Assembly (NCBI RefSeq): GCF_001182745.1
Contig: NZ_LN868939.1
Span: 2,593,930-2,657,929 of the forward strand
From: Nocardia farcinica
Lineage (GTDB): Bacteria > Actinomycetota > Actinomycetes > Mycobacteriales > Mycobacteriaceae
Direction of reading: 5' to 3'
DNA: 64,000 nt
Shown: piece after piece, positions 3,480 through 59,911 of the stretch
Numbering within the stretch: position 1 is the first letter of the stretch
Layout: the number at the start of each line of letters is the position of its first letter
Program-made: the position numbers and the translations under genes
The notes under the pieces: generated by a model
Seen by the model: only the letters and a program-made list of their open reading frames with translations
Databases searched by the model: none
What the model was told of the DNA's origin: nothing

Positions 3480-3913
3480 CCGCCCTGGTGCGTATCGATC
3501 TGCCGTGGACGTCGCCGCCGCTGTCGATGAACGACCGCGGGTACACGCGCGGCGCCGCGATGGCGAAAGCTGCGAAAACCCGCGAGATCCGCGAAACCAT
3601 CATCGCTCTCGCCACGCAGGCCAAGCTCCCGCGGCTCGTCGCGCACGCCGCAGTGCAGTTGCACTATCAGCCGCGCGACAACCGCCGCCGCGACACCGAC
3701 AACCTCGTCGCGACGCTCAAACCGATCGCCGACGCCCTCACCGTTTCGCGCGCATCCAAACGCGGCACGGTACCCGGGTACGGGCTCGTGCTCGACGACA
3801 CCCCGCAGTGGATGGCCAAGCCGGAACCGCTCATCCACCCAGCCGTGAAGGGCGAAGGCGGGCGCATGTGGATCGAAATCACCTACAGCACAACGGAAGA
3901 GGCGGCATCATGA
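3476..3913 (+). CDS. RusA-type Holliday junction resolvase
   Basis: This 145-aa protein fits the RusA endonuclease family, which cuts four-way DNA junctions as a dimer. It has PWTSPPLSMNDRG near the N-terminus and the acidic active-site block RRRDTDNLVATLKPIADAL, then GLVLDDTP with a further Asp pair. RusA genes are typical of prophage replication/recombination modules and may resolve branched DNA before packaging. The GTG overlaps the upstream TGA. Confidence 0.8.
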   Translation: MTALVRIDLPWTSPPLSMNDRGYTRGAAMAKAAKTREIRETIIALATQAKLPRLVAHAAVQLHYQPRDNRRRDTDNLVATLKPIADALTVSRASKRGTVPGYGLVLDDTPQWMAKPEPLIHPAVKGEGGRMWIEITYSTTEEAAS

Positions 3914-4377
3914 CGACAGGATTCTATGGCGTCGCCGTGTGGCATCCGAAGCATGAAGTGAATGTCGGCACGCTGTGGCGGTCCGCGATGACGTATCAGG
4001 CGTCGATGCTCGCCACCATCGGATCGCGGTACAAGCCGCAAGCCTCCGACACGTGCAGAGCGCACAACGCGATCCCACTGCACCATTACCACGACATCGA
4101 CGACCTGATCGCACACCTGCCGTACGGTTGCCCGCTCGTCGGGGTCGAACTCGACGACCGCGCTGTCTCCCTCCACGAGTTCCCCCACCCGGTCCGCGCG
4201 CTGTACCTGCTCGGCGCCGAGGATCACGGGCTGCCCGCTGCCGTGCTCGACCGCTGCCACCACGTCGTGCAGATCCCGTCCCCGTCGCCGTGGTCGCTGA
4301 ACGTGGCCGTCGCCGGGAGCCTGGTCATGCATGACCGTTGGTCCAAGACCGGCGGGCTTCGGACGGTGAACGCGTGA
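3910..4377 (+). CDS. SPOUT (TrmH/SpoU-like) RNA 2'-O-methyltransferase
   Basis: The C-terminal half has the SpoU/TrmH AdoMet-knot signature: ALYLLGAEDHGLP, then HVVQIPSPSPWSLNVAVAGSLVMHDRW, close to the family's G-x-E-x-x-G and hydrophobic-P-x-x-x-x-SLN-V motifs. These enzymes 2'-O-methylate tRNA or rRNA. At 155 aa it is a minimal single-domain form. ATG 3910 overlaps the upstream stop region. With Thg1, glyS and tRNA genes in the same element, a tRNA substrate is plausible but inferred. Confidence 0.75.
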   Translation: MTTGFYGVAVWHPKHEVNVGTLWRSAMTYQASMLATIGSRYKPQASDTCRAHNAIPLHHYHDIDDLIAHLPYGCPLVGVELDDRAVSLHEFPHPVRALYLLGAEDHGLPAAVLDRCHHVVQIPSPSPWSLNVAVAGSLVMHDRWSKTGGLRTVNA

Positions 4378-7416: not shown

Positions 7417-8238
7417 ATGAGCGTTCACGGCAGCGCCGAATTTCAGCGGATCGCGAACCAGAATACGGTCCTGCGCGGTCAGGTCGGGTCCGGGCTCCAC
7501 GGCGTCACCACCGGCGCCGACGACCGCGACGAAATGGGCGTGTGCATCGAGCCTCCCGAATACGTGATCGGGCTAGACCGGTTCGAGCAGTACATTTTCC
7601 GAACCCAACCGGAAGGCGTGCGTTCGGGTGCCGGTGACCTCGACCTGACCGTGTACTCGCTGCGGAAATGGGCGCGACTGGCCGCGCAAGGAAACCCCAC
7701 CGTGTTGCTGCTGATGTTCATCCCCGAACAGGAAATCGTGGTTACCAGCCACGTCGGCCGCGATCTTCAAGCCCACCCCGACCGGTTCCTGTCCCGGCAG
7801 GTCGCGGACCGGTTCGCCGGCTACCTCATGTCGCAGCGAGACCAGATGCTGGGCGTGAAGTCGAAGAAACACACGAACCGGCCCGAGCTGGTGGACGTGT
7901 ACGGATTCGACGCAAAGTTCGCCTATCACATGGTCAGGTTGGGTGTGCAGGGTGTGGAGCTACTGACCACGGGGCGGATCACGTTGCCGATGCCGGAACC
8001 TGAGCGGGCGTGGCTGACGGAGCTGCGGCACGGGCTGCACACGAAAGAGGAAGCGTTGGAACGGGCTGCGGACCTGCTGGCGCAGTTGAACCACCTGTCG
8101 CTGCATGCGGACCTGCCGCCTGAGCCGGACTTGGCGCGCATCAACCGGTGGCTGATCGACACATATCTGGCGTGGTGGGAACGTGGCGGCCGGATCGTCG
8201 GACGGAACTCTGCGGCTGTGTGTGAAATTGCCGGTTGA
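7417..8238 (+). CDS. Predicted nucleotidyltransferase (pol-beta superfamily)
   Basis: This 273-aa protein matches the COG3541-type nucleotidyltransferases common in actinophages. The N-terminus has GSGLHGVTTGADDRDEMGVCI, the G-S-x-h-G...D-x-D-x-hh motif with metal-binding acidic residues, followed later by DLDLTVYSLRKWARLAAQGNPTVLLLMF. The substrate is unknown; relatives may modify RNA or act in toxin-antitoxin-like systems. ATG 7417 follows GGGAGGA. It lies just after the moron terminator. Confidence 0.75.
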   Translation: MSVHGSAEFQRIANQNTVLRGQVGSGLHGVTTGADDRDEMGVCIEPPEYVIGLDRFEQYIFRTQPEGVRSGAGDLDLTVYSLRKWARLAAQGNPTVLLLMFIPEQEIVVTSHVGRDLQAHPDRFLSRQVADRFAGYLMSQRDQMLGVKSKKHTNRPELVDVYGFDAKFAYHMVRLGVQGVELLTTGRITLPMPEPERAWLTELRHGLHTKEEALERAADLLAQLNHLSLHADLPPEPDLARINRWLIDTYLAWWERGGRIVGRNSAAVCEIAG

Positions 8239-11364: not shown

Positions 11365-12132
11365 ATGACTGCCTTCGAGGTGTTGCAGCCGTCCCGGATC
11401 GCAGTTTGTGGTGACTGGCATGCGAACGCCGCCTACGCACGCAAAACCATCACCTACGCAGCCCAGCAGGGTGCACAGATGATCCTGCATGTCGGCGACT
11501 TCGCCTACGACATGCGCGAGAACTTCGACGGGTCACCAGACTTCCTCGATCACGTCCAAGACGCACTCGAAGAGACCGGCCTCGTCCTCGGCTGGGTCGA
11601 CGGCAACCACGACAACCACACCCTGCTCGCCGAACTCGTCAGGGACCACGGCCACACCGCCATCCCCATCCGGCCCCGCATCTGGTACCTGCCCCGCGGA
11701 TACCGATGGACCTGGAACGGAGTCCGCTTACTCGCGATGGGCGGCGCGCACAGCGTTGACCGGCCCTGGCGTCGCCCACACATCGAATGGTGGCCAGGCG
11801 AAACCATCACCACAGCCGACGCCCTCCGCGCCTGTGAAGGCGGACCCGCCGACATCATGATCTGCCACGACGTACCCGCCGGCATCCGAATCCCGTGCAT
11901 CGAAGGCAACCCATTCAGGTTCCCTGAGGCCCAGATCTACGCAGCCGAACTCAACCGTCGCGTCCTCCGCGGGGTCGTCGACGTCGTGCAACCGAAGCGC
12001 CTGTTCGCTGGCCACTACCACTGCCGCCTCGACACCAGATTGAACGGTGAACGCTACTCGACCATGGTGCACATCCTCGACGGAGACCACGCACCCATCG
12101 CCGACAACACCGCCATCATCGACATGCAGTGA
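11365..12132 (+). CDS. Calcineurin-like metallophosphoesterase (early)
   Basis: This 255-aa protein has the two-metal phosphoesterase motifs in order: VCGDWHAN (D-x-H), HVGDFAYD (G-D), WVDGNHDN (G-N-H-D), ICHDVPAG (H) and FAGHYHCRLD (G-H-x-H). Phage members act as nucleases, RNA-processing or signalling phosphatases; the substrate cannot be told. It is one of two unrelated-length phosphoesterases in the window (the other at 26556). ATG 11365 overlaps an 8-residue mini-ORF. Confidence 0.8.
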   Translation: MTAFEVLQPSRIAVCGDWHANAAYARKTITYAAQQGAQMILHVGDFAYDMRENFDGSPDFLDHVQDALEETGLVLGWVDGNHDNHTLLAELVRDHGHTAIPIRPRIWYLPRGYRWTWNGVRLLAMGGAHSVDRPWRRPHIEWWPGETITTADALRACEGGPADIMICHDVPAGIRIPCIEGNPFRFPEAQIYAAELNRRVLRGVVDVVQPKRLFAGHYHCRLDTRLNGERYSTMVHILDGDHAPIADNTAIIDMQ

Positions 12133-12743: not shown

Positions 12744-13025
12744 ATGAGCCACACGATCATCAAACCGACCCGTGACGAGGACTTCTACGTCGTCTACTCG
12801 TCCGTCATGGACGCGCCGATCCGGTGCGGCAGTCGAGCCGAGCTGGAATCGACCTACGAGCACGCCGCAGCCGACAGGTTCGCGCGCGCCGACGAGACAG
12901 GCACATCCTCCAAGCTCGGATGGTACGGGTTCGACAATCGGCCCTCGCGAATCGTTGCCGCGGATTACGGCGTGAGCCACACCGCAATCCTGCGGATTCG
13001 GCGAAACGCAAAGTGGGCAGCCTGA
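12744..13025 (+). CDS. Small HTH-containing protein, 93 aa
   Basis: The C-terminal end, SRIVAADYGVSHTAILRIRRNAKW, is a compact helix-turn-helix of the kind that recognises DNA. The N-terminal half is acidic and aromatic. Its stop overlaps the DUF5131 start (TGATG). It may be an operon-level regulator; unproven. Confidence 0.55.
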   Translation: MSHTIIKPTRDEDFYVVYSSVMDAPIRCGSRAELESTYEHAAADRFARADETGTSSKLGWYGFDNRPSRIVAADYGVSHTAILRIRRNAKWAA

Positions 13026-14140
13026 TGGGCGCTACTACCAAGATCGAGTGGACTGATTCAACTTGGTCGCCGGTAACAGGCTGCGACAAGGTCTCGCCGG
13101 GCTGTGACCACTGCTACGCCGAGGGCATCGCGCACCGGTTCGCGGGAACGCCGCAGTTTCCCAACGGATTCGGGGTGACGTTGCGGCCGGAGCGGTTGGG
13201 TGAACCTCTGCGGTGGAGGAAGCCGCGGCGCGTGTTCGTCAACAGCATGTCGGACCTGTTCCACAAGGACGTGCCTGACGAGTTCATCGCGCGGGTTTTC
13301 GCGACGATGGCGCGAGCGCCGCAGCACACGTTCCAGATCCTGACGAAGCGGCCGGGCCGCATGCGGTCTCTACTCGGCGACCGGGTCGACGGCGCGCAGC
13401 GGCTCCTCGAAGCCGCGACGGACGAGGACACGGCGACCGCGATCTACGACGCGCCGTGGCCGCTCCCGAACGTGTGGCTCGGCGTCTCCGCCGAGAACCA
13501 GCACTGGGCGAACCTCCGCATTCCTACCCTGCTTGGTACCTCGGCTGCCGTCCGCTTCGTCAGCGCCGAACCGCTTCTCGGGCCGGTGGACCTCACCAGA
13601 ATCCCGTTCCAGGCAGGCACCGCCACGCATCTCGACGCCCTGAATGGGCGGTACGGGCACCCCGGCCGGTGGGAAGCCGCTGCGGAAAAGCTCGACTGGG
13701 TGATCGTCGGCGGGGAATCGGGCCGCGGCGCCCGGCCGATGCACCCCGAGTGGGCCCGCTCGCTGCGCGACCAGTGCACCGCCGCCGGGGTGCCGTTTTT
13801 ATTCAAGCAATGGGGTGAGTACATCACCACCGAGCAGATGACCGAGGCCACCTACATGACATGGGACATCGAGCACGGCAGCGCTCAGTACCACCCGTCT
13901 GTGCAATGGCGCGTCGAATCCACAGCAGAGCGGATGGCGATCCACAGGCTGTGGAAACACCCCACCACCGAGGACGAACGCCAAGTCCGTGCCGACATCA
14001 CCTCCACCGCAGCAGATTTCGAGTCCGCCCACGCACACGGTGACGAGTTCGGTGCCCGCCTCCACCTCGACCGCCTGCGCCAACTCGTACTCCGCGCCAT
14101 GACCTACCTCGACGACCGAATGGAATCAGCCGCCCAATGA
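13025..14140 (+). CDS. DUF5131 (Gp37/Gp68) family protein
   Basis: 371 aa, typical of phage Gp37-like DUF5131 proteins. It starts with TKIEWTDSTWSPVTGCDKVSPGCDHCYAE, whose three cysteines resemble a radical-SAM-type cluster site. Conserved blocks follow: VFVNSMSDLFHKDVPDEFI, FQILTKRP, NVWLGVSAENQ, FVSAEPLLGPVDL, WVIVGGESGRGARPM and FLFKQWGEY. The reaction is unknown; nucleic-acid modification or repair has been suggested. ATG 13025 was selected over a longer shadow frame. Confidence 0.85.
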   Translation: MGATTKIEWTDSTWSPVTGCDKVSPGCDHCYAEGIAHRFAGTPQFPNGFGVTLRPERLGEPLRWRKPRRVFVNSMSDLFHKDVPDEFIARVFATMARAPQHTFQILTKRPGRMRSLLGDRVDGAQRLLEAATDEDTATAIYDAPWPLPNVWLGVSAENQHWANLRIPTLLGTSAAVRFVSAEPLLGPVDLTRIPFQAGTATHLDALNGRYGHPGRWEAAAEKLDWVIVGGESGRGARPMHPEWARSLRDQCTAAGVPFLFKQWGEYITTEQMTEATYMTWDIEHGSAQYHPSVQWRVESTAERMAIHRLWKHPTTEDERQVRADITSTAADFESAHAHGDEFGARLHLDRLRQLVLRAMTYLDDRMESAAQ

Positions 14141-15548: not shown

Positions 15549-15805
15549 CCGTGATGTACTTCCGGGCCCGCCTGCGGGACGACGGCGCCAGCGCAATCGA
15601 GTGCGTCAACCCGCTGCCACGCATCTCGATCACCCAGGAGTTCCTTGCCGAATTACCCAGCGAGTTCGTGTCCAGGGACGGCAACCCGGTCACATTCCGC
15701 TGCGCGAACGGGACATGGACGTACCGCCTTCTCGAACCTGCACGGTCGGCGCCGAACCGGTCCGTGTTTCGAGCCGTACCCGTCGAACACCAGGAGGCGG
15801 CATGA
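15545..15805 (+). CDS. Hypothetical protein, 86 aa
   Basis: GTG start in a GTGA overlap with the methylase. It reads MYFRARLRDDGASAIECVNP... with several beta strands, ending VFRAVPVEHQEAA. It sits between the methyltransferase and Thg1-like genes. Not recognised. Confidence 0.5.
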   Translation: MTVMYFRARLRDDGASAIECVNPLPRISITQEFLAELPSEFVSRDGNPVTFRCANGTWTYRLLEPARSAPNRSVFRAVPVEHQEAA

Positions 15806-16485
15806 AACTCGGCGACCGGATCAAAGCCTACGAGGCCGCCTCGAACTACCGGCTCACGCCGAACTCGTGCGTGTTCCTGCGGGTCGACGGCAAGGCGTTC
15901 CACACGTTCACGCGCGGCATGCGGCGGCCGTTCGACCCCGTCCTCATGCAGACGATGGTCGACGCCGCGGTGGAAACTGCACGGGAGATGCAGGGATTCA
16001 AGCTCGGCTATGTCCAGTCGGATGAGGCGACGTTCCTGCTGACCGATTTCGATACGCACGACACGGCCGGCTGGTTCGGGTACGAGGTGAACAAGCTGGT
16101 GTCGATCTCGGCGTCGACGATGACGATGCACTTCAACCGGCTGTTCCGAGAGAAGCCGACGGCGGTGTTCGATTCGCGGGCGTTCGTGGTGCCACAGCCG
16201 GACGCGCCGAACGTGTTCGTGTGGCGCCAGCAGGACTGGGCGCGGAACTCGTTGCAGATGCTGGCGCGCGCGCACTTCTCACACCGTGAGCTGCACGGGA
16301 AGAACCGGACGGCGATCCACGACATGCTGCACGCAAGGGGCATCAACTGGGCGGCCCTGTCCATGCGAGAGAAGAACGGCACCTTCATCCTCGCCGACAA
16401 ATCCATCCATCATGAGCAGTGGACCTGGACAGACATCAACGAGTACTTGAGGTCCGTCACACCTGCCGAACAGAACGCCGCCTGA
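15802..16485 (+). CDS. Thg1-like tRNA 3'-5' nucleotidyltransferase
   Basis: This 227-aa protein is recognisable as a tRNA-His guanylyltransferase family member. It has CVFLRVDGKAFHTFTRGM (the R-x-D-G-x-x-F palm motif, about residues 24-41), QSDEATFLL (second metal-binding acidic pair, about 72-80), then VNKLVSISASTMTMHFNR and a HFSHRELHGKNRTAIHDML helix. Thg1-like proteins add nucleotides to RNA 5' ends in the reverse direction and in bacteria repair 5'-truncated tRNAs. It is the last gene before a strong terminator and directly upstream of glyS and the tRNA cluster, supporting a tRNA-maintenance role. Confidence 0.85.
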   Translation: MKLGDRIKAYEAASNYRLTPNSCVFLRVDGKAFHTFTRGMRRPFDPVLMQTMVDAAVETAREMQGFKLGYVQSDEATFLLTDFDTHDTAGWFGYEVNKLVSISASTMTMHFNRLFREKPTAVFDSRAFVVPQPDAPNVFVWRQQDWARNSLQMLARAHFSHRELHGKNRTAIHDMLHARGINWAALSMREKNGTFILADKSIHHEQWTWTDINEYLRSVTPAEQNAA

Positions 16486-16500
16486 CCGCGAACCCCACTC

Positions 16501-16540
16501 AACAGGCCCTAACCCTCTCTGACTAGGGTTAGGGCCTGTT
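16501..16540 (+). terminator. Terminator closing the early operon
   Basis: A perfect 16-bp stem (AACAGGCCCTAACCCT / AGGGTTAGGGCCTGTT) with an 8-nt loop is followed by GTCTATCC. It separates the Thg1-like gene from glyS, 38 bp ahead of its start. Confidence 0.9.
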
Positions 16541-16578
16541 GTCTATCCCCCGCCAGCCCTGGACAGGAGCACTGCCGC

Positions 16579-17967
16579 ATGTCAAAGACCAAATCCAAGG
16601 TGGACACCGTTGCCAACCTCGCCAAGCGCCGGGGGCTGGTGTACCCGTGCGGTGAGATCTACGGAGGCACCAAGTCGGCCTGGGACTACGGGCCGCTCGG
16701 GGTGGAGCTGAAGGAGAACATCAAGCGGCAGTGGTGGCGGTCGATGGTGACCAGCCGCGAGGACGTCGTCGGCCTGGACTCCTCGGTGATCCTGCCGCGT
16801 CAGGTCTGGGAGGCCTCCGGCCACGTCGCCACCTTCACCGACCCGCTGGTCGAGTCGCTGATCACGCACAAGCGCTACCGCGCCGACCATCTGCTGGAGG
16901 CGTACGAGGAGAAGCACGGCCACCCGCCGGCCAACGGCCTGGCCGACATCCGCGACCCCGAGACCGGCGAGCCCGGCCGGTGGACCGAGCCGCGCAACTT
17001 CTCCGGCCTGCTCAAGACCTTCCTGGGCCCGGTCGACGACGAGGAGGGCCTGCACTACCTGCGCCCGGAGACCGCCCAGGGCATCTTCATCAACTACAAG
17101 AACGTCGAGACCACCGCGCGCAAGAAGCCGCCGTTCGGCATCGCCCAGATCGGCAAGAGCTTCCGCAACGAGATCACCCCGGGCAACTTCATCTTCCGCA
17201 CCCGCGAGTTCGAGCAGATGGAGATGGAGTTCTTCGTCAAGCCGGGCGAGGACGAGCAGTGGCACCAGTACTGGATCGACACCCGGCTGGCCTGGTACAC
17301 CGACCTGGGTATCGACCCGGAGAACCTGCGCCTCTACGAGCACCCGAAGGAGAAGCTGTCGCACTACTCGACGCGCACCGTCGACATCGAGTACCGCTTC
17401 CGCTTCCAGGGCAGCGAGTGGGGTGAGCTGGAGGGCGTCGCCAACCGCACCGACTACGACCTCAAGACGCACTCCGAGCACTCGGGCACCGAGCTGAGCT
17501 ACTTCGACCAGGCCAACAACGAGCGCTACATCCCCTACGTCATCGAGCCGGCGGCCGGTCTGACCCGCTCGCTGATGGCGTTCCTCGTCGACGCCTACGC
17601 CGAGGACGAGGCGCCCAACGCCAAGGGCGGAGTGGACGTGCGCACGGTGCTGCGCCTTGACCGCAGGCTCGCCCCGGTCAAGGCCGCCGTGCTGCCGCTC
17701 TCGCGCAACGCCGACCTCACCCCGAAGGCCAAGGATCTGGCCGCGCAGCTGCGCAAGCACTGGAACGTGGAGTTCGACGACGCGGGTGCGATCGGCCGCC
17801 GCTACCGCCGCCAGGACGAGATCGGCACCCCGTTCTGCATCACGGTGGATTTTGATTCGTTGGAGGATCAGGCGGTGACGGTGCGTGAGCGGGATTCGAT
17901 GTCGCAGGAGCGGGTGTCGTTGGCGCGGGTGGAGGAGTATTTGGCGGGGCAATTGATCGGCGTCTAG
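16579..17967 (+). CDS. glyS: Glycyl-tRNA synthetase (alpha2, class II)
   Basis: This complete 462-aa GlyRS attaches glycine to tRNA-Gly. It has the N-terminal [20 protein letters not shown], class II motif 2 ([20 protein letters not shown]), motif 3 ([13 protein letters not shown]) and the C-terminal anticodon-binding domain ([19 protein letters not shown] to [16 protein letters not shown]). It is what one expects of a Nocardia chromosome, yet phage-type genes lie on both sides. Codons are GAG/CTG-rich, unlike the GAA-rich genes to the left. From about 17848 the last 40 codons switch to GAT/TTG/GTG usage, suggesting a mosaic 3' end. RBS AGGAG. Confidence 0.95.
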
Positions 17968-18003
17968 TTGCTGGTGCAGGGTGGAGTCAATCCTTCAACG
18001 AAA

Positions 18004-18025
18004 TTTGTAACATAATTGTTACAAA
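18004..18025. promoter_or_regulatory. AT-rich palindrome after glyS
   Basis: TTTGTAACA and TGTTACAAA are perfect 9-bp arms around TAAT, an AT-rich island in very GC-rich DNA. It lies 37 bp after the glyS stop. It could be a repressor operator, an integration core, or a weak terminator; nothing decides between these. Confidence 0.5.
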
Positions 18026-18195
18026 CGATTGGGCTTCCGCCGCCGATCATGCCCTACCATCTGATTTGCGGGTGAGTTGTACCCAAAAGCAGATTGCCCC
18101 AGTTTTGGCATCTCCACTTGCCTTGGTCGCCCGTGGTGCTGCCACCACACTCCTTCAGTGGATCGGCCCAAGGAATCCACAACTTCATATCGGTT

Positions 18196-18284
18196 TCCCC
18201 GCTAGCTCAATGGAAAGAGTGCCGGCGCTTGCGCCTCGGATGGTGCGGCCAGGGTGGGTCCGCGTTCGAATCGCGGGCGGGGAG
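18196..18284 (+). ncRNA. tRNA-like element with an aberrant anticodon arm
   Basis: Perfect 7-bp acceptor (TCCCCGC / GCGGGGA), a D-arm (GCTC AATGGAAA GAGT) with the GG pair, and a perfect T-arm (CCGCG TTCGAAT CGCGG) make a clear tRNA elbow. The 38 nt between G18221 and the T-arm cannot form a 5-bp stem with a 7-nt loop. The best fold is GGCG-CTTG-CGCC inside CC/GG, or a 4-bp GCCG/CGGC stem with a 21-nt loop. No anticodon can be assigned. The 3' end is GCA. It may be a tRNA pseudogene, a tRNA mimic, part of the RNA downstream, or an attachment-site remnant. Confidence 0.7.
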
Positions 18285-18793
18285 CAAAGCGTGGCCTAGC
18301 TAGCCGCGCTGGTGGTGACAGAGTGAGCGGCTACTGCGTGATCGGGCCGCGAATGTGTGCGACTGTCGGGAACCTGACGGGCGAGTGCCTGAGGGGAAGC
18401 CTTAGCGGGCGGAAACCGATGCCTCAGCGGGCAAGTCGCAGCACCGGGAATTACATAGCCTTACGGTCCATGCCCCGGACGGAGAGCTAGGAACTCTCCC
18501 CACCCCTTAACTTGGCCTGGTCTATTGCGGTAGGTCGGGTAGTGGCTGATCGGATTACTCGCCGGACGACGAGGCCGGTCAGCTGCGATGAGCGGTAACG
18601 GTAGAGGGCTTTCCGTTTTCGGCTGATGGTCCTCACTGGCGGATGGTGTGGCTACGGCAGCCATCCGCCACCGCGTAAGCGTTGCGGCACCACGGGATGC
18701 CGAGCAGTGAGGTAACGGCTCACCAGTCCCGTTCGCGGGGCGACTACAGGGCAGGTGGCCGGACGGCGTGATCCCTTCGGCGCCTGCCGCATA
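18285..18793 (+). ncRNA. Candidate large structured RNA between two tRNA genes
   Basis: About 509 nt without a convincing ORF folds by eye into many perfect helices: TAGCCGC/GCGGCTA (18301/18327), TGCGACT/AGTCGCA (18358/18434), GGAGAG/CTCTCC (18481/18494), CCTCACTG/CAGTGAGG (18631/18705) enclosing TGGCGGATGG/CCATCCGCCA (18637/18661, sharing TG) and a CGC-GTAA-GCG hairpin, CCCG-TTCG-CGGG (18728), and GGCAGG/CCTGCC (18750/18783). GNRA and UUCG loops plus nested helices are typical of ornate phage RNAs such as GOLLD, which sit beside tRNAs; a group I intron is an alternative. Family membership is inference. Confidence 0.55.
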
Positions 18794-18866
18794 GCGGTGT
18801 GGAGAAGGTCGGTTAACTCGCCAGTCTCATAAGCTGGAGTCTCGCGTTCAAATCGCGACACCGCCA
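18794..18866 (+). tRNA. tRNA with anticodon CAT (Met, or Ile if lysidine-modified)
   Basis: Acceptor GCGGTGT / ACACCGC, D-arm with GAG...CTC, anticodon arm CCAGT-CTCATAA-GCTGG with CAT at the wobble-to-third positions, and T-arm CGCG-TTCAAAT-CGCG. G1-C72 and the anticodon stem rule against an initiator tRNA. No CCA is encoded. The short 3-bp D-stem is slightly unusual. A CAT tRNA can be elongator Met or Ile2; I cannot tell which. Confidence 0.9.
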
Positions 18867-18870
18867 CGAA

Positions 18871-18905
18871 ATAGCCTGCCCTCCCGGCAACGGCAGCCAG
18901 GCTAT
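18871..18905 (+). terminator. Terminator after the tRNA
   Basis: ATAGCCTG and CAGGCTAT pair (8 bp), followed by CCCCTTCTTG. Positioned 5 nt after the tRNA 3' end. Confidence 0.65.
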
Positions 18906-18987
18906 CCCCTTCTTGCCGGTCGACCGCGCCCGTCTTTCGGGTGGGGGCGGCCGGTGTTCTCTTGCCGACCCGATGTCAGGAGGCGTG

Positions 18988-19209
18988 ATGGCTGATCCTG
19001 ACGGCAAGACCGGTGCGTCCCGTGAGCTGAACGAATACTGGACGACCGGTGAAGGCAAAGCCAAGTGGGCGACCTCCGAGCATCCGTTCATCACGTTGCA
19101 AACACTGCTGCTGCAACACATGTCGCTGCGTGAAGCGTCCGGGCTCGCAGCCCGCTACTACCGGATCGTGTTCGGGCGCTGGCCCGGCGGCGGCAAACGA
19201 CGCTCGTGA
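18988..19209 (+). CDS. Conserved actinophage left-end protein, 73 aa
   Basis: ATG 18988 behind AGGAGG. The product contains ELNEYWTTGEGKAKWATSEHPFITL and ASGLAARYYRIVFGRWPGGG, closely resembling the small first-gene proteins of many mycobacteriophages and Gordonia phages, which lie near the cohesive end upstream of terminase. Function unknown. It marks the start of the late region. Confidence 0.65.
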   Translation: MADPDGKTGASRELNEYWTTGEGKAKWATSEHPFITLQTLLLQHMSLREASGLAARYYRIVFGRWPGGGKRRS

Positions 19210-19224
19210 CCGGACTGGTGCAAG

Positions 19225-19774
19225 CTAAGTGACCCCGGCGGCTTCGAGGTCGTCAAGCACCTGCCCCACCCGATCGCGGATAGCGTTCATCGTCGGCAGC
19301 AGGTGCTCGAAGCGGTTGCTGTCGGGCAAGTCGATCGAGATGTGGTAGCCGATCTGCCCAATCTTGATCAGATGATGAGGGTGTCTCGTCAGCTGTGGGA
19401 CGGTAGCGCGGAACACCCATGCCGCGAGTTCGTATCCAGGTCGCAGCTCGCCGTCGGGGGGACTGTCATCCCGCACGAACTCGAACTCGTCCGAGTAGAC
19501 TACGTCGCTTTCGATGAAGGCACTGTTCGTGACGAGCATCAGCCGGTGCTTGTCGTGGTTCACAAGCCTGTTCAACTGGGCCAAAGGATGGTCGAGCGGG
19601 TCGGGGAGAAGACCCGGCTGGTGTTTCTCCAGCACATCCAAGACTGGCGCCGAAAACCAAGTCTGGTCCTGGATCTTCTTCTCCGATTCGATGATCGGGA
19701 ATTTCACGTTCCGTTCATCCCTAAGCGACAATGCAATGCCGTTCTTCGCACAGTGCTCAACCACATGTGGGGGC
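19225..19774 (-). pseudogene. C-terminal half of a hypothetical gene split by an IS
   Basis: Reads HVVEHCAKNGIALSLRDERN, then KFPIIESEKKIQDQTWFSAPVL and ends IRDRVGQVLDDLEAAGVT. It continues, on the other side of the IS, the protein whose N-terminus lies at 21027-21290. The family (helical N-terminus, LRAALDHAVY, FPI..., LNRLVNHDKHR) is a common actinobacterial hypothetical whose role is unknown. The start of this fragment lies inside IS sequence. Confidence 0.7.
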
Positions 19775-19836
19775 TGCTGCAGGGGTAGGTGACACCTGAT
19801 GTGGCTTGCCTTCGGGTGGGCTGGAAGGATGTCGCT

Positions 19837-20130
19837 GTGCCCAAGCCTTATCCCCGCGAGTTCCGTGACGATGTCGTCCGGGTGGCTCGCAACCGTGATG
19901 ACGGGGTGACGTTGGAGCAGGTCGCCGCGGATTTCGGGATCCACCCGATGACGCTGTCGAAATGGATGCGGCAAACCGATGTCGACGATGGTGTGAAACC
20001 GGGCATGACCTCAAGCGAGGCGGCGGAGCTTCGGGAAGCCAGGCGCCGGATTCGGCTGCTGGAGCAGGAGAACGAGGTTCTCAAACGAGCCGCCGCCTAT
20101 TTTGCGCAGGCGAATCTGCCGGGAAAATGA
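19837..20130 (+). CDS. IS3-family transposase OrfA
   Basis: 97 aa from GTG 19837 behind GGAAGGA. It carries a helix-turn-helix (EFRDDVVRVARNRDDGVTLE, FGIHPMTLSKWMRQ) and a leucine-zipper-like C-terminus (ELREARRRIRLLEQENEVLKRAAAYF). OrfA binds the IS ends. It ends at GGGAAAATGA, where GGGAAAA (20121-20127) allows a -1 shift into OrfB. Confidence 0.85.
   Translation: MPKPYPREFRDDVVRVARNRDDGVTLEQVAADFGIHPMTLSKWMRQTDVDDGVKPGMTSSEAAELREARRRIRLLEQENEVLKRAAAYFAQANLPGK
20121..20127 (+). promoter_or_regulatory. -1 ribosomal slippery site GGGAAAA in the IS
   Basis: In OrfA frame the bases fall as G GGA AAA, the X-XXY-YYZ form, directly before the OrfA TGA. Slipping back one base enters the OrfB frame at its ATG. 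Confidence 0.75.
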
Positions 20131-20999
20131 CCTACCCGCTCGTCCGTGAGCTGGCCGACGACGGGATTCCCGTCGCGGTGACGTGCCGGGTGTTGGGGCT
20201 GGCCCGCCAGCCCTACTACCGGTGGCTCGCCGAACCGGTTACGACTGCCGAACTCGACGAGGCGTATCGAGCGAACGCGCTGTTCGATGCTCACCGTGAC
20301 GATCCGGAGTTCGGGTACCGGTTTCTCGCTGACGAGGCTCGGGCCGCGGGCGAGCCGATGGCCGATCGCACCGCGTGGCGGATCTGCTCGGCACGAGGTT
20401 GGTGGAGCGTGTTCGGCAAGAAGCGCGGCGGGAAGGGCAGACCGGGCCCGCCGGTGCACGAGGACCTGGTCCGCCGCAACTTCACCGCCGATGCCCCGAA
20501 CCAGCTGTGGCTATCGGACATTTCCGAACATTGGACCGGTGAGGGCAAGCTCTACATCTGCGCAGTGAAGGACGTGTTCTCCAACCGGATCGTCGGGTAT
20601 TCCATCGACTCCCGCATGAAGTCGGTGCTTGCGGTCCGGGCACTCAACAATGCTGTCGCCCGGCGCGGCGACGTTGCCGGATGTGTGCTTCACAGCGACC
20701 GCGGGTCGCAATTTCGAAGCCGGAAGTTCGTGCACGCCTTGACTCGTCACGGCATGACAGGGTCGATGGGCAGGGTAGGCGCGGCCGGTGACAACGCCGC
20801 GATGGAAAGCTTCTTCGCGCTCTTGCAGCGCAACGTCCTGGACCGCCGATCCTGGTCCACGCGTGAGGAGTTGCGCATCGCGATCGTCACCTGGATCGAA
20901 CGCACCTACCACCGGCGGCGCCGGCAGACCGGCCTCGGGCGTTTGACGCCCGTCGAATACGAAGTAATCATGACCCCACCGGCCAGTCAGGCCGCGTGA
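20127..20999 (+). CDS. IS3-family transposase OrfB (DDE integrase domain)
   Basis: 290 aa with the rve fold and DDE triad: LWLSDISEHWTG (first D), VLHSDRGSQF (second D) and DNAAMESFFALLQRNV (E), then the family tail RRRQTGLGRLTPVEYE. ATG 20127 overlaps the OrfA stop; fusion through the GGGAAAA shift gives the active OrfAB transposase. No break is seen, so the element may be mobile. Confidence 0.9.
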   Translation: MTYPLVRELADDGIPVAVTCRVLGLARQPYYRWLAEPVTTAELDEAYRANALFDAHRDDPEFGYRFLADEARAAGEPMADRTAWRICSARGWWSVFGKKRGGKGRPGPPVHEDLVRRNFTADAPNQLWLSDISEHWTGEGKLYICAVKDVFSNRIVGYSIDSRMKSVLAVRALNNAVARRGDVAGCVLHSDRGSQFRSRKFVHALTRHGMTGSMGRVGAAGDNAAMESFFALLQRNVLDRRSWSTREELRIAIVTWIERTYHRRRRQTGLGRLTPVEYEVIMTPPASQAA

Positions 21000-21026
21000 C
21001 CGAACCTGTCACCGAATCCTGCATCA

Positions 21027-21290
21027 GTCCCGTGTATACACCGCGTGATCGAGGGCCGCGCGCAGGTTGCCGATGTAATCGGACGCTTGTAGCGCGACCA
21101 GGTCAGGCACGGTGGATGCCTCCTTGACCACCACATGACATATGTACTCAGGGTGGTTCCGCTCCCACGCCACCGTGCAGTGGCAAGGATGACCGTCGGC
21201 GAAGTCCGTCACGCTCTTCGTGAGCGCCTGGAGGTGCCTCTCGGCATGCTCGAACTTCAAGCGAGCGCTCTCGATCCCCTTGATCGCCAT
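21027..21290 (-). pseudogene. N-terminal half of the IS-split hypothetical gene
   Basis: From ATG (reverse strand, 21290) it reads MAIKGIESARLKFEHAERHL, then QALTKSVTDFADGHPCHC and ends DYIGNLRAALDHAVYTRD at the IS border, where a TGA arises. An upstream start (VKSLDRARLRAYDLG...) cannot be excluded. The protein should continue into the fragment at 19774-19225. Between 21291 and 21600 no other gene is supported. Confidence 0.65.
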
Positions 21291-21617
21291 GCCCAGATCG
21301 TAGGCGCGAAGCCGCGCTCGATCCAATGACTTAACCGCCCCTACGTGCGCGGTGCGACCTCCCCTGTGAGGTAACGCAGAAGGTAGTCGGTGCCTACCTG
21401 GTGACCCCAAACCAACACCGCAAGTTTCGCCACCACCCTCGTGCCCCAATCACCCGGGGCCGCCGCGCCGATCTCACGCCGCGCAGGCCGCAGGGCATCA
21501 CAGGTGGCGTGACCGCAGGCAGCTGCAAGCGCCGCGGTCGGCCCGCCGGCCGGTTTTCGCTACCTCGGGAGCCGGCGGGCCTCAGCTTCTGTTGATCACG
21601 AGCGCCAGGAGGCGCCA

Positions 21618-24483: not shown

Positions 24484-24966
24484 ATGGCACGCAAACACAC
24501 ACTCTCCCCGGAACAGCGCGCGGGAACCCAAGAACGCCGCAACCGGGCACTCGAACTCCGGCTATCGGGCATCTCGCAAGCCGACATCGCCGAACAGATG
24601 GGGGTCAGCCGCACCACCGTCTCCAAATGGATCAGCCACGCCATCCGCGACATCACCCGCGAGAACGCCGAAGAGTACATAGAGATCCAACAGCAGCGGT
24701 TCGACGCGATGCTGGCGGGCATCTGGAACGACGCCACACACGGCGACACGTGGAAGATCGACCGCGCGCTCGCGATCGAAGACCAGCGAGCCAAACTCCT
24801 CGGCCTGTACAAACACGCCGAGTTGAAGGTAGTCGCAGACGCCAAGGGCAACGTCAGCGAAGAATCCAAGTCGATGGTTGGCCAGCTTGTCGAAGCACTG
24901 CACACGGCATACACCCTCGACAAGAACGCTGAGAACAGCGACGAAGACGACGGGGGCGACGAGTGA
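24484..24966 (+). CDS. Terminase small subunit
   Basis: 160 aa with an N-terminal HTH (LELRLSGISQADIAEQMGVSRTTVSKWISHAI), a helical oligomerisation region and an acidic tail (EDDGGDE). TerS recognises the packaging site and loads the large subunit. RBS GGAGG; overlaps terL by 4 bases. Confidence 0.85.
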   Translation: MARKHTLSPEQRAGTQERRNRALELRLSGISQADIAEQMGVSRTTVSKWISHAIRDITRENAEEYIEIQQQRFDAMLAGIWNDATHGDTWKIDRALAIEDQRAKLLGLYKHAELKVVADAKGNVSEESKSMVGQLVEALHTAYTLDKNAENSDEDDGGDE

Positions 24967-26255
24967 CCCTCGACACGGGAAACCTGTCGATGTCGCGCAA
25001 GCAGATCGCCTCCATCGTCGAATGCGAACAAGCCGCGATCAACATCTGGAACGGCGCGATCCGCTCAGGCAAGTCGATCGCCAGCATCGTCGCGTTCTTC
25101 ATCGGCGTTGCCAAAGCCCCTGAGGACGCCATGCTCGTCATCATCGGCCGAACGTTGCAGACGATCGAGCGCAACATTCTCGAACCGATGCAGAAGAAGT
25201 CGCTGTTCGGGCCGCTGGCGAAGGAAATCCACCACACCAGAGGCTCGTCCACGGCCGTCATCCTCGGCCGCATCGTTCACTTGATCGGCGCCAACGACGA
25301 ATCAGCGGAATCCAAGATCCGCGGCTCCACCATCTACCTCGCCCTCGTCGACGAAGCCACACTGCTGCCGGAGAACTTCTGGACCCAGCTTCAGGGCCGC
25401 CTTTCAGAACCTGGCGCGCGCTGCCTGGCGACGACCAACCCCGACAATCCCGAGCACTATCTGAAGAAGAAGTTTATCGACCGCGTCGGCGAAGAGGGCA
25501 TGGATGTCCAGGTCTGGAACTTCTACATGGAGGACAACCCGCAACTGTCAGCGAAGTACATCGCACGCAAGAAGGCCGAGTTCACCGGCGTCTTCTACAA
25601 GCGGTTCATCCTGGGGGAGTGGGTGGCCGCCGAGGGCGCGGTGTTCGACATGTTCGACCGCGAAACCCATGTGATTCCGTGGGAAGAACTGCCGGACATG
25701 CGGTGGATCCTCGGTGTCGGGATCGACCACGGCACCACCAACCCCACCCATGCTGTCATGGTCGGGCACGGGGTTGACGACGTTTTGTATGTGATGGACG
25801 AGTGGCGGTACAAGGCCGACTCGGAGGCGGCGCGCTGGTCCAACGTCGAACTGTCGAAGGGTGTCCGCGCGTGGATCGACAGCGCACACCATCCCAGCGA
25901 CGACCCCGACAACCCACCGAAACTGACCGCACCTGTTTTCGTGGACTCCTCGGCACTGGATTTCCGGGTCCAGCTCAAGCAAGACGGCCTGACCAACGCG
26001 AAAGCGAACAAGGACGTCACCTACGGGATTCGGACGATGGTTGCGCTCATGGGTGCGGGCAAGCTCAAGTTCACCGACCGATGCCCAGAACTTCTCAAAG
26101 AGATCCCCGCCTATGTGTGGGATGAGAAGGCCAGCGCGGAAGGCAAGGACCAGGTCGTGAAGCTGAACGACCACGGTATCGACGCTCTTCGCTATCTGAT
26201 CGTCACTGCTGAACGGAAGTGGCGCCGCTACATCAAACTCGCGGACGCGGCATAA
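24963..26255 (+). CDS. Terminase large subunit
   Basis: 430 aa. ATPase Walker A is NGAIRSGKS (about residues 30-38), Walker B IYLALVDEATLL (about 122-133), coupling motif ATTNPDN. The RNase H-like nuclease has acidic sites in GVGIDHGTTN, FVDSSALDF and LNDHGIDALRYL. The PBSX/T4-like TerL packages DNA into the prohead. Start GTG in an ATGAGTG junction. Confidence 0.95.
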   Translation: MTLDTGNLSMSRKQIASIVECEQAAINIWNGAIRSGKSIASIVAFFIGVAKAPEDAMLVIIGRTLQTIERNILEPMQKKSLFGPLAKEIHHTRGSSTAVILGRIVHLIGANDESAESKIRGSTIYLALVDEATLLPENFWTQLQGRLSEPGARCLATTNPDNPEHYLKKKFIDRVGEEGMDVQVWNFYMEDNPQLSAKYIARKKAEFTGVFYKRFILGEWVAAEGAVFDMFDRETHVIPWEELPDMRWILGVGIDHGTTNPTHAVMVGHGVDDVLYVMDEWRYKADSEAARWSNVELSKGVRAWIDSAHHPSDDPDNPPKLTAPVFVDSSALDFRVQLKQDGLTNAKANKDVTYGIRTMVALMGAGKLKFTDRCPELLKEIPAYVWDEKASAEGKDQVVKLNDHGIDALRYLIVTAERKWRRYIKLADAA

Positions 26256-55962: not shown

Positions 55963-56509
55963 GCGGACGCCGCGACTGACCGCCGAGGAGCTGGAGGCCC
56001 TGCGTGAGGCCACGCTCCAGCACTACGAGGCCGCCGGCTACCCGGACGAGCTGACCGACCGTCTGCGCGCCTACACCGACGAGCCGGACGGCGGGCTGAT
56101 CAACCTGATCGACATGGCCAGCTCGCTGGCCCGCAGCCACGAGGCCGCGCTGGAACGGATCGCCGAGCTGGAGGCCGAGCGCGCCCGCCTGGTCGAGGGC
56201 GTGGCATCGACGGTGCGCAGGTTCAGCGCGACCCTGGATGAGCGGGACGCCCTGCGCGCCCGCCTCGCCGAGCTGGAGACGCAGCAGCAGCCGCGCGTCA
56301 TCACCGACCTCGCCGAGCTGGACGGGCTGCCGCCCTTCGCGGTCATTCGCGCTGGGAGCGTCATCTATCAGCACGTCGGCTACGGCGTTTGGCTCACGCC
56401 AGGCATCCACCCGCGCACCCACAGCGTGTGGCTTCTCCAGCACGCCGCACGCCAGCGCGTGCAGGTCATCGTCCTGTGGACGCCCGAGCAGGAGGCGGCT
56501 GATGCCTGA
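55955..56509 (+). CDS. Coiled-coil accessory protein, 184 aa
   Basis: RTPRLTAEELEALREATLQHYEAAG, a central RIAELEAERARLVEGVASTV coiled coil, then AELDGLPPFAVIRAGSVIY and a closing QRVQVIVLWTPEQEAADA. The last motif (VLWTPEQE) also ends the 58815 protein, so the two share a C-terminal domain. Role unknown. Confidence 0.55.
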   Translation: MPERTPRLTAEELEALREATLQHYEAAGYPDELTDRLRAYTDEPDGGLINLIDMASSLARSHEAALERIAELEAERARLVEGVASTVRRFSATLDERDALRARLAELETQQQPRVITDLAELDGLPPFAVIRAGSVIYQHVGYGVWLTPGIHPRTHSVWLLQHAARQRVQVIVLWTPEQEAADA

Positions 56510-56984
56510 CCAGATACCCGCACTGACCATGTCCGGCTACTACCCGCCCGCTGCCCTACGAAAGGAAATTCACCTCATGCAGACTCTCGCCGACGCCGTC
56601 GCCTTCACCGGCGTCACCGTCCACGACTGGCTCGACCACACCGCCGAGATCCCGCGCGTGTCCCGTGCCGCCGCGCAGGGCGATGTGCTGATCCTGCGTG
56701 TCACGCTCGCCCCGGCCCGCACCGTGATGCCCTCTCGTGTCGTGGTCGTGGCATCGGAGGCCAGCAGCCACACCCACACCCTGCATCCGTCCGGCCCCTG
56801 CTTCTACACCCCCCACACCCCGGCCGGGGCCGGGGATGTGCTGCTCGGACTGCTCACTGTGCCGGAGGGCAGCACGGCGGTGCTGATCCATCAGGAGCAC
56901 GGCGGACTGGAGATCCTGCCCGGCACGTATCAGGTGCGGCGTCAGCGGGAGCTGGCCGACGAGTGGCGGATGGTGGCTGACTGA
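56502..56984 (+). CDS. Hypothetical protein, 160 aa
   Basis: ATG 56502 overlaps the previous stop; ATG 56577 behind AAAGGAA is an equally good start. The body, DVLILRVTLAPARTVMPSRV, VVASEASSHTHTLHPSGPCF, EGSTAVLIHQEHGGLEILPGTYQVRRQRE, is beta-rich and resembles the accessory proteins paired with DUF6745 genes. Its stop overlaps the next ATG. Confidence 0.55.
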   Translation: MPDQIPALTMSGYYPPAALRKEIHLMQTLADAVAFTGVTVHDWLDHTAEIPRVSRAAAQGDVLILRVTLAPARTVMPSRVVVVASEASSHTHTLHPSGPCFYTPHTPAGAGDVLLGLLTVPEGSTAVLIHQEHGGLEILPGTYQVRRQRELADEWRMVAD

Positions 56985-58345
56985 TGCGCATCGATCAGCT
57001 GACCGACGAGCAGGCCGCAATGCTGCCTGTGATCCGCGACGAGTGGATTCGGGCAGGGTTGTCTACCGAGCCTGCCGACCGCGCTGCTGCTGAGGCCGGG
57101 GTCCGCAAAGCGTACGCGGCGGCCGGTCTGGAGCCGCCCCGGCTGGTGATCTGGCTCGACTCCCCCCTTGCCGGTGCGATCGGCCAGGCCATCGTCCGCA
57201 CCCCCCCGCGCACCTCGGCCCGCGTGCAGGCCCAGGTGCGGGCCCAGGTGCAGGCCCAGGTGTGGGCCCAGGTGTGGGCCCAGGTGGGGGACCAGGTGTG
57301 GGCCCAGGTGGGGGACCAGGTGTGGGCCCAGGTGGGGGACCAGGTGGGGGACCAGGTGTGGGCCCAGGTGGGGGACCAGGTGTGGGCCCAGGTGGGGGAC
57401 CAGGTGTGGGCCCAGGTGGAGGACCAGGTGGGGGACCAGGTGTGGGCCCAGGTGGGGGACCAGGTGTGGGCCCAGGTGGGGGACCAGGTGCGGGCCCAGG
57501 TGGGGGACCAGGTGCGGGCCCAGGTGGGGGACCAGGTGCGGGCCCAGGTGGGGGACCAGGTGCGGGCCCAGGTGGGGGACCAGGTGTGGGCCCAGGTGGA
57601 GGACCAGGTGTGGGCCCAGGTGGAGGACCAGGTGGGGGACCAGGTGTGGGCCCAGGTGGGGGACCAGGTGTGGGCCCAGGTGGAGGACTGGTGCACCGGC
57701 GCGCTCGGCCGATGGGAATGCGGCTGGCTGTCCTTCTACGCCGCGCTCGGCCGGCTCGGGATCGACGTCTCACGCCTGGACGGACTGGTCGAGATCGAGC
57801 GCTCGGCAGGCTGGTGGTGGCCGATGCGCGATGCGGTCGTCCTCACCGACCGCCCGTCCGTCATCAGCCGGGACAAAGACGGACGCCTGCACAGCGCGGC
57901 CGGACCGGCCGTGCTGTACCGGGACGGATTCGCCGTGCACGCCTGGCACGGCACCCGCGTGCCCGCCGACCTGATCGAGACCGGATGGGACACCGCGCGG
58001 ATCCTGCGTGAGCCCAATGCCGAGGTGCGCAGGTGCGCGATCGAGCGCATGGGCTGGGATGTCTTCATCGCCTCATCCGGCATGAGGCAAGTAGGCGACG
58101 CCGTACCCGATCCGGGCAATGCCCCGCACACGCTCGCACTCTACGACCTGCCTGACACCCTCTCCGACATGTTCGAGGAGCCCGCCCGGATCCTGCTGTG
58201 CACCAACGGGTCACCTGAGCGTGACGGCACCCGCCACCGGTTCGGGCTGGTCGTGCCCGGCCACCACACCGATCCCGTCGCCGCAGCCGCCGACCTCTAC
58301 GACATCCCCGTGCAGGCGTACAGGCAGCTGGAGGTACGCCGATGA
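56984..58345 (+). CDS. DUF6745-type protein with 39 four-residue repeats
   Basis: 453 aa. Residues 81-236 are 39 tandem units of V-W/R/G-A/D-Q (VWAQ, VGDQ, VRAQ, VEDQ), an amphipathic helix or beta-solenoid-like spacer. The flanks are typical of DUF6745: LVIWLDSPLAGAIGQAIVR before, and DWCTGALGRWECGWLSFYAALG, DGRLHSAAGPAVLYRDGFAVHAWHGTRVP, ILREPNAEVRRCAIERMGWD after. Function unknown; repeat number should vary among strains. The 468-bp repeat also stays open in other frames. Confidence 0.75.
   Translation: MRIDQLTDEQAAMLPVIRDEWIRAGLSTEPADRAAAEAGVRKAYAAAGLEPPRLVIWLDSPLAGAIGQAIVRTPPRTSARVQAQVRAQVQAQVWAQVWAQVGDQVWAQVGDQVWAQVGDQVGDQVWAQVGDQVWAQVGDQVWAQVEDQVGDQVWAQVGDQVWAQVGDQVRAQVGDQVRAQVGDQVRAQVGDQVRAQVGDQVWAQVEDQVWAQVEDQVGDQVWAQVGDQVWAQVEDWCTGALGRWECGWLSFYAALGRLGIDVSRLDGLVEIERSAGWWWPMRDAVVLTDRPSVISRDKDGRLHSAAGPAVLYRDGFAVHAWHGTRVPADLIETGWDTARILREPNAEVRRCAIERMGWDVFIASSGMRQVGDAVPDPGNAPHTLALYDLPDTLSDMFEEPARILLCTNGSPERDGTRHRFGLVVPGHHTDPVAAAADLYDIPVQAYRQLEVRR
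57224..57691 (+). repeat. 12-bp minisatellite, 39 units
   Basis: Alternating GTGTGGGCCCAG and GTGGGGGACCAG variants (also GTGCGGGCCCAG, GTGGAGGACCAG) in uninterrupted tandem, 468 bp, all in frame with the DUF6745 gene. There are no spacers, so it is not CRISPR. Slippage-prone. Confidence 0.9.
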
Positions 58346-59747: not shown

Positions 59748-59911
59748 GGTGCGCTGCCGAGCTGTGCCACCACTGGACCGGCGAGGGCTGCGCCTGCGAG
59801 GTCTTCGACCTCGCCCCCGCGGTCGTGTGCGAGCGGTGCACCGGCACCCGAGACGCGGACGGCACGTGCCCGAACTGCGACACCGACACCGAGGCGGTGG
59901 CCGACAGATGA
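59744..59911 (+). CDS. Cys-rich zinc-binding peptide, 55 aa
   Basis: Contains CAAELCHHW, CACEVF, CERC and CPNC knuckles, with EGCACEVFDLAPAVVCERCTGTRDADGTCPNC forming a treble-clef-like pattern. It separates the two copies of the duplicated family and overlaps both by 4 bases. Confidence 0.6.
   Translation: MRCAAELCHHWTGEGCACEVFDLAPAVVCERCTGTRDADGTCPNCDTDTEAVADR

Follow-up and report, generated by a model that had tools for sequence, protein, structure and literature searches.

The window analysed here, 64,000 nucleotides of Nocardia farcinica DNA, is a siphovirus-type prophage, and the most valuable part of the locus under study in it is an RNA with a tRNA-derived head. Downstream of the genes for a Thg1-like enzyme and a glycyl-tRNA synthetase (GlyRS), a structured core stands between this tRNA-like head and a tRNA-Met. 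The core is a real, strongly covarying phage RNA that is absent from Rfam 15, and the place it occupies is a hot spot of modules for translation and RNA repair. The favoured reading, to which a probability of roughly 0.55 is given, is that the locus is a modular translation and RNA-repair site of a Nocardia siphovirus-type prophage. Its most recurrent element would be a structured noncoding RNA (ncRNA) that has a tRNA or tRNA-like head on its 5′ side and a tRNA on its 3′ side and is freed by tRNA processing, its neighbours would be swappable, and the GlyRS would provide dosage. All coordinates are those of the window; the RNA and its parts, the tRNA-Met, the palindrome and the DUF3800-IV-like sequence described below and the genes for Thg1, GlyRS, SpoU and RlaP are on the forward strand.

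The core occupies about 220 nucleotides (18285–18504), begins with CAAAGC and is shared by 15 distinct loci of phages or prophages, namely the window, L135, L055, L192, L142, L145–L150, L152, L154, L156 and L158. Several routes led to these relatives. A search at DNA level through 401 family genomes matched positions 18179–18684 at 85% identity in the Nocardia genome G032 (locus L135), and positions 18260–18509 match the IMG/VR prophage L055 at 88%. A 17-base word common to these three sequences, CTGGTGGTGACAGAGTG, was present in 14 viral contigs, of which, judged by eye, 11 are relatives and three (L141, L143 and L144) are chance matches; these three, on which the covariance model R1 was not run, were dropped. 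L151, which is the L055 contig, and L153, which looked identical to L150 over the printed stretch, were dropped before counting. A second scan of the viral contigs with a 19-base pattern gave nothing beyond the 17-mer contigs and that of L192, a locus that entered the set via its GlyRS. A scan of named genomes located the core in N. thailandica, N. aurea, N. ignorata and Nocardia sp. CC227C, and two of these four loci were already in the set as viral contigs. R1 scores 222 bits on the window (18286–18502), which is one of its 13 training sequences, and finds the core in 7 of 150 Nocardia genomes, each time with at least 210 bits and with scores equal to those of loci already known. Matches of 21–23 bits in three genomes outside the genus are chance-like and were not counted.

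The fold of the core was drawn by hand on a MAFFT alignment of 13 sequences (A3), from which L149 was excluded for its broken 3′ half. A second alignment of 15 sequences including L149 (A4) was fitted by the model and is thus biased towards the structure. The fold consists of P1 with a UAGC loop, P2, a long P3, two small YAGC-loop hairpins that are mostly closed by U-G, G-U or C-G, P5, and P6 with a CUAG-rich loop; there are three YAGC-loop hairpins in all. In A3, 94.7% of the cells are paired and 24 of the 34 pairs show two-sided change, which was matched by none of 500 shuffles. The corresponding values in A4 are 98.4% and 26 of 34. When the pairing partners were slid by 1–3 columns, at most 47% were paired; since the structure was drawn on A3 itself, part of this excess is expected, and the two-sided changes are the stronger evidence. 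The covarying fold and the R1 score bear out the first-pass annotation of the window, which had described about 500 nucleotides of structured RNA at this place from the letters alone.

This RNA has not been catalogued in the collections that were searched. Rfam 15 gave no match to the core at gathering score in the window and none at E ≤ 10 in 17900–19000, and in the window and its relatives the Rfam matches near this RNA are tRNAs, DUF3800-IV and matches below gathering score. A 41-nucleotide query, the first core hairpin, had no match in the phage and plasmid collections, the 828-bp region had none in the phage collection, and a literature search returned no title or abstract opening describing such an RNA. 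A match in Corynebacterium phage phi16 was rejected, as it is due to the two tRNAs of that phage and R1 finds nothing there. The roughly 250 nucleotides without annotated genes between tRNA-Trp and tRNA-Asn of phi16 (L201:5053–5301) are possibly another tRNA-flanked RNA, and by R1 not this one.

What kind of tRNA precedes the core? In the window the head (18196–18284) has G at N73 and no CCA. ARAGORN reads 18196–18285 as tRNA-Ala (tgc) with an imperfect anticodon stem, and the Rfam tRNA model does not match it even at E ≤ 10. The acceptor stem is paired at 7 of 7 positions, the T stem at 5 of 5, and the D arm is intact. Between the D and T arms there are 39 nucleotides instead of the canonical 23, and no anticodon arm with a 5-bp stem and a 7-nucleotide loop is formed, so the earlier description of a tRNA-like element lacking a normal anticodon arm holds. 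A head is found directly before the core in all 15 loci, with the junction N73-CAAAGC and without CCA. By the counts of a script that picked the best-fitting 5′ strand, the acceptor stem is complete in 14 heads (6 of 7 pairs in the other), the T stem is complete in all 15, and 3–4 of the 4 pairs of the D stem are present in all 15. Acceptor sequences differ between many members; therefore recent copying alone does not explain the arms, which are retained through pairing. The segment between the D and T arms varies from 17 to 42 nucleotides (26 in L055, 42 in L135), with the canonical 23 in four heads and 22 in one. Heads of canonical length are named by ARAGORN as Asn GTT in L145 and L149 and as Leu CAA in L147 and L148. 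A lenient Rfam scan of six loci matched the tRNA model to four of the six heads, those of L142 and L154 being the two without a match. Upstream of the window head there is a perfect 22-bp palindrome, TTTGTAAC-N6-GTTACAAA (18004–18025), the sole match in the window where 0.02 would be expected. It is a possible operator; paired half-sites upstream of the head were found in two of the 15 loci only, the window and L055.

The 3′ flank of the core is also a tRNA. In the window it is a tRNA-Met with a CAT anticodon (18793–18867), called by ARAGORN and matched by Rfam at 52 bits in agreement with the annotation. A tRNA follows the core after 4–377 nucleotides in 14 of the 15 loci (seven Met, four Trp and one each of Tyr, Ile and Ser), and the gap is just 4–5 nucleotides in L145 and L152. 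The stretch between the flanking tRNAs measures 508 nucleotides in the window, about 214 in L145 and L152 and about 600 in L135 and L055. From these flanks the full ncRNA of the window would run from 18285 to 18792.

It is chiefly by its acceptor-T half that a tRNA is recognised by RNase P and RNase Z. If the head is kept for 5′-end processing, the anticodon arm would be dispensable. It is proposed that the head is retained mainly as a processing signal, with RNase P cutting at its 5′ end and RNase Z after N73, and that the downstream tRNA sets the 3′ end of the RNA via RNase P. An RNA of about 210–600 nucleotides would thereby be freed and may act in the lytic cycle like other RNAs of phage tRNA islands. 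It is probably structural or protein-binding, given its three YAGC-loop hairpins, which may be protein sites, and the DUF3800-type module that it carries in some phages. Thg1, RlaP, GlyRS and Ro60 would be swappable neighbours that repair or supply tRNA function.

Several observations weigh against this proposal. Of the 15 heads, only those of L142 and L156 escape ARAGORN; the other 13 are called as tRNAs, three of them with no amino acid assigned. Since the heads named Asn GTT and Leu CAA look like normal tRNAs, part of the family may have kept a decoding role. Alternatively, the head could serve as a decoy or as a Y-RNA-like module. In L149 the 3′ half of the core is broken, and the 3.8 kb downstream contain no tRNA. 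The core is known only from Nocardia genomes and IMG/VR contigs: outside Nocardia there was no strong match in samples of 401 genomes of the family and 397 of the order under strict filters, the only strong R1 matches in these samples being two Nocardia genomes already known. No protein family is common to all 15 loci; the most widespread reaches 11, in loci of unequal length. Counts of further pair types in the fold are unexceptional, being equalled in 43 of 500 shuffles on A4 and in 27 of 500 on A3.

Immediately after the core, the window has a 3′ hairpin module (18509–18589; 61.4 bits with model R2), and the same RNA occurs beside divergent DUF3800 genes in other Mycobacteriaceae. In a search of 17 loci the module was present in 6 of the 15 that bear the RNA (window, L135, L146, L147, L150 and L156), with E of 1.1e-6 or better. 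It lies 3–5 nucleotides after the core in five of these and further on, upstream of a tRNA-Met, in L147. The training loci of R2 were picked by similarity to the window, so the matches in the window and L135 are not independent; those in L146, L147, L150 and L156 are more so. An Rfam DUF3800-IV-like sequence is found upstream of the head (18118–18175), at 48.5 bits and thus below the gathering score of 60.7. Other DUF3800-associated RNA motifs exist besides Rfam DUF3800-IV.

The R2 hairpin also stands by itself. An unlisted hairpin of about 80 nucleotides with the TACTCGCCGGACGACGAGGC motif is located just past the 3′ end of divergent DUF3800 genes, in either orientation, in several Mycobacteriaceae genomes. 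The loci beside DUF3800-type genes are L036, L037, L043–L048, L054 and L140, and seven of them (L036, L037, L043, L044, L047, L048 and L140) gave no Rfam match to the hairpin at E ≤ 0.5. An open reading frame (ORF) with a DUF3800 signature is beside the hairpin in 14 of 17 loci, some of which come from one genome. The DUF3800 identity rests on the name carried by some homologues of the neighbour proteins and on sub-threshold Pfam scores of 14–16 of the 21 bits needed, DUF3800 being the sole Pfam match in three neighbour proteins at lenient E. At E ≤ 0.001 Pfam DUF3800 was found neither in five neighbour proteins nor in the genome of the window, where a divergent member could escape. Two papers assign DUF3800 an RNase H fold and connect the domain with rare CRISPR systems and with putative ncRNAs (PMC10910872, PMC12669027).

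The GlyRS gene of the locus, glyS (16579–17967), encodes a full-length enzyme of 462 residues that matches the NCBIfam glycine--tRNA ligase model at 667.6 bits against a cut-off of 312. The genome has two glyS genes, one of the host and one of the prophage, and the two proteins are 98% identical over residues 4–462. In a central tract (16597–17843) the two genes have 2 differences in 1,247 bp. Outside it, the first 18 bp and the last 121 coding bp have diverged from the host gene, with 68.8% identity over the 112 bp compared at the 3′ end. Host-type sequence therefore makes up 1,247 of the 1,389 bp, and about 6 N-terminal and about 40 C-terminal residues differ in origin. Against the nine nearest other Nocardia species, the host gene has identities of 90–93% in the tract and 80–89% at the 3′ end. 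These values are as expected along the whole of glyS, so the host copy looks native and the phage gene looks like the recipient. It looks as though the prophage glyS recently took up its central tract from the host gene, in which case a host-to-prophage replacement of an aminoacyl-tRNA synthetase has been caught in the act. The 3′ end of the prophage gene is 75.9% identical to glyS of L192 vs 59–73% to the nine host genes, which hints modestly at a phage lineage. L192 glyS itself is 86.8% identical within the tract and shows no such conversion by this host. Close phage relatives of this GlyRS are few, L192 being the one other viral contig. At E ≤ 1e-5, 4 of 50,697 phage records have a GlyRS match, all below 60% identity and none labelled actinophage.

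The Thg1-like 3′-5′ RNA polymerase of the TLP type (15802–16485) matches Pfam Thg1 with E of 2.8e-27 (95.6 bits vs a cut-off of 29.2), and its closest solved relative is the Thg1-like protein 4kgk (158 bits). It retains the RxDG and QSDE stretches, the metal-binding motifs. The early region also encodes a SpoU-family (SPOUT) RNA methylase (3910–4377; SpoU domain, E 9.8e-21), RlaP, an RNA-repair nucleotidyltransferase of the polymerase-beta type (7417–8238; Pfam PF10127, E 4.4e-48, 164.6 bits vs a cut-off of 23), and a calcineurin-like phosphoesterase (11365–12132). The Thg1-like enzyme, the full synthetase and the SPOUT methylase of the first-pass annotation are thus all recovered by domain searches.

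How these genes are combined varies between relatives. The L192 prophage has the order glyS-head-core-tRNA-Met, with a Ro60 gene upstream and DNA shared with the window from 16524, upstream of glyS; there is no Thg1 match in its 21-kb locus. In L055, head and core come directly after Thg1, and RlaP and a 531-residue Ro60 are encoded upstream. L136 has Thg1 and Ro60 and no match to the core, and L135 has the core and a tRNA-Met and, in its 20 kb, no Thg1 or GlyRS match. Apart from the window, Thg1 is present in 1 of 13 RNA-bearing records or genomes, a search that did not include the L192 record. RlaP is found in only part of the RNA carriers. Among 26 Thg1-bearing viral records that were searched, out of 80 fetched, nine have an RlaP match above cut-off, a count from which no association is drawn. 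Thg1 relatives as such occur in 127 of 50,697 phage records. The RNA holds a similar position in most members. Ten of the 15 loci have a PRA-PH-type gene upstream of it, and a cutinase-like gene lies downstream in 11 of the 14 whose sequence extends at least 3.4 kb in that direction; the other three, L145, L149 and L152, lack the cutinase-like gene and are laid out differently. The recurrence of glyS-head-core-tRNA-Met in L192 and of Thg1-head-core in L055 argues that the parts are together more than by chance. A conserved Thg1-GlyRS-RNA unit was rejected, since the modules dissociate between relatives. Thg1, GlyRS, RlaP and Ro60 are best described as independent modules that share the locus and probably a theme. 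For glyS-RNA-tRNA-Met, neither of the grounds for refutation named in the annotation, an assembly error or a lack of clustering, is borne out.

Ro60/TROVE-like proteins are encoded in several Nocardia-type prophages or viral contigs, at L185:13137–14732 and L192:1139–2815 by Pfam and at L136:15688–17307 and L177:16424–18019 by tblastn. TROVE has no match in the genome of the window and occurs in 3 of the 15 genomes or records that were searched for it, in one of them at a separate YrlA locus. In L055 (locus L185) a weak YrlA-like match of 24.9 bits lies just upstream of the Ro60 gene and not at the core RNA. In Nocardia sp. CC227C a TROVE gene is accompanied by a YrlA-like RNA (L197:7359–7425; 52 bits, below gathering), on another contig than the ncRNA.

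Alternatives to the favoured reading differ in how they treat the head and the neighbours. The annotation had proposed a joint system to keep or remodel translation during infection or against tRNA-cutting defences. In such a system Thg1 would mend the two tRNAs, GlyRS would charge them, and the RNA would assist. Thg1, RlaP, SpoU and GlyRS do share one early region, sister prophages add Ro60, and in the part of a jumbo-phage review that deals with them RlaP and Thg1 are named as phage RNA-repair enzymes that restore RNA ends (PMC7824862). The shared hot spot and its repair theme are what stands of that proposal; a single integrated system is unlikely, as the modules dissociate in the manner described, no RNA ligase was found among the 36 of 101 predicted window ORFs scanned with Pfam, and the RtcB of this genome is on the host contig C1. 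The head may instead mimic a tRNA but offer no anticodon to cleave, and so block anticodon nucleases, or it may be a Y-RNA-like module that tethers a Ro60/PNPase-like RNA machine. Its altered anticodon segment, its retained tRNA elbow and the Ro60 genes of sister prophages are consistent with this. So are the Mycobacterium avium tRNA arrays of a putative antidefence system, whose tRNA variants are described in a passage of one report (PMC12803027) as differing in the anticodon domain, with decoding and antidefence roles left open there. This idea too is unlikely, because TROVE is rare among the carriers and absent from the genome of the window, the Rfam YrlA model has no match in the window (gathering score) or in 17900–19000 (E ≤ 10), and the L055 YrlA-like match is beside the Ro60 gene. 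A more specific version joins an anticodon-altered mimic that anticodon nucleases cannot cut to the YAGC core and, in several phages, to the DUF3800-side hairpin, giving an anti-defence RNA that would shield tRNAs and titrate a DUF3800 nuclease; it is rather improbable. At the other extreme, an ordinary tRNA pseudogene followed by unstructured spacer would fit the odd tRNA-Ala call and the missing Rfam match, and is contradicted by the core covariation and the fixed junction in 15 of 15 loci to the point that it hardly deserves consideration.

For the synthetase, the question is whether the phage needs a different GlyRS or only a working one. A copy resistant to a toxin, drug or defence that hits host GlyRS has a parallel of sorts in the second, diverged glyS (76–80% of the protein) of 4 of 58 other Nocardia genomes (G033, G005, G023 and G049; L024–L027). 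Those copies lie away from this locus and have no ARAGORN tRNA in the surrounding 20 kb, and they are unconnected with the prophage RNA locus. With all but about 46 residues at the two ends now of host type, resistance is improbable: the catalytic centre is now host sequence, which favours extra dosage, and the replacement suggests that the phage needs a working GlyRS and perhaps not a different one. The window head is unlikely to be a substrate of the enzyme, since ARAGORN reads tgc and not a glycine anticodon in it. The long near-identical tract could also raise the suspicion that glyS and the tRNAs are host sequence joined through an assembly error. The 2 differences in the tract, the divergence of both ends and the same gene order in the independent prophage L192, with its shared DNA, make such an error very improbable.

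The window is C2:2593930–2657929 of a 6.46-Mb genome, and its right edge coincides with the contig end. Its prophage character is evident from a terminase (24963–26255), a Sipho_Gp37-like tail gene, an amidase and a phage antirepressor. PADLOC gave no defence match for Thg1, RlaP, the phosphoesterase, SpoU, one DUF3800-like protein and one Ro60. A DUF5131 gene (13022–14140) matches the PADLOC candidate-defence models PDC-M41B and PDC-M30B. Downstream of the RNA locus, 19213–21328 spans about 2.1 kb compared with about 0.47 kb at the same place in L135, and is perhaps an insertion; its ORFs include an IS3-like transposase (19962–20999). A direct duplication of 275 bp at 94.9% identity (58803–59077 and 59896–60170) is located within a run of related sequence at 56252–60190.

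A strongly covarying family is hereby added to the small set of RNAs from phage tRNA islands, and the tRNA-like head renders the question of its function testable. If the favoured reading is true, some of the tRNA-like genes in phage tRNA arrays serve as linkers of an ncRNA and not, as they are commonly interpreted, as translation aids or decoys.

Compared with known systems, the Thg1-like protein and RlaP are ordinary members of their phage families, and the pair differs from other phage Thg1 and RlaP by standing with GlyRS and the new RNA. Like the dimeric GlyRS of Actinobacteria the window enzyme is full-length, but it is prophage-borne, with diverged ends and a host-derived centre. The R2 module is shared with DUF3800-associated RNA motifs, and the DUF3800-IV-like stretch upstream of the head is a further likeness; here, however, the module is an appendix of the core and present in 6 of 15 loci. 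YrlA and other Y RNAs that work with Ro60 (Rsr) are likewise ncRNAs with a tRNA-mimic domain, and related prophages encode Ro60. A part of the jumbo-phage review cited above (PMC7824862) mentions a few phages with a TROVE protein plus a tRNA-like partner. The present head differs in having a complete acceptor stem and in lying 5′ of a separate core, and the window has neither TROVE in its genome nor a match to Rfam YrlA (RF02553); in L147 the only YrlA match has 28 bits and lies over an array of other tRNAs. GOLLD and ROOL are likewise large structured RNAs beside tRNAs in phages and prophages, the location found here. One report places GOLLD env-38 downstream of a Met-tRNA and notes that tRNAs are at times part of GOLLD linkers (PMC12286853). 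No Rfam model of either matches the new RNA within the limits given above, and its core of about 220 nucleotides abuts the tRNA-like head at a fixed junction. The RNA thus appears most like GOLLD and ROOL, a likeness of setting and not of sequence model.

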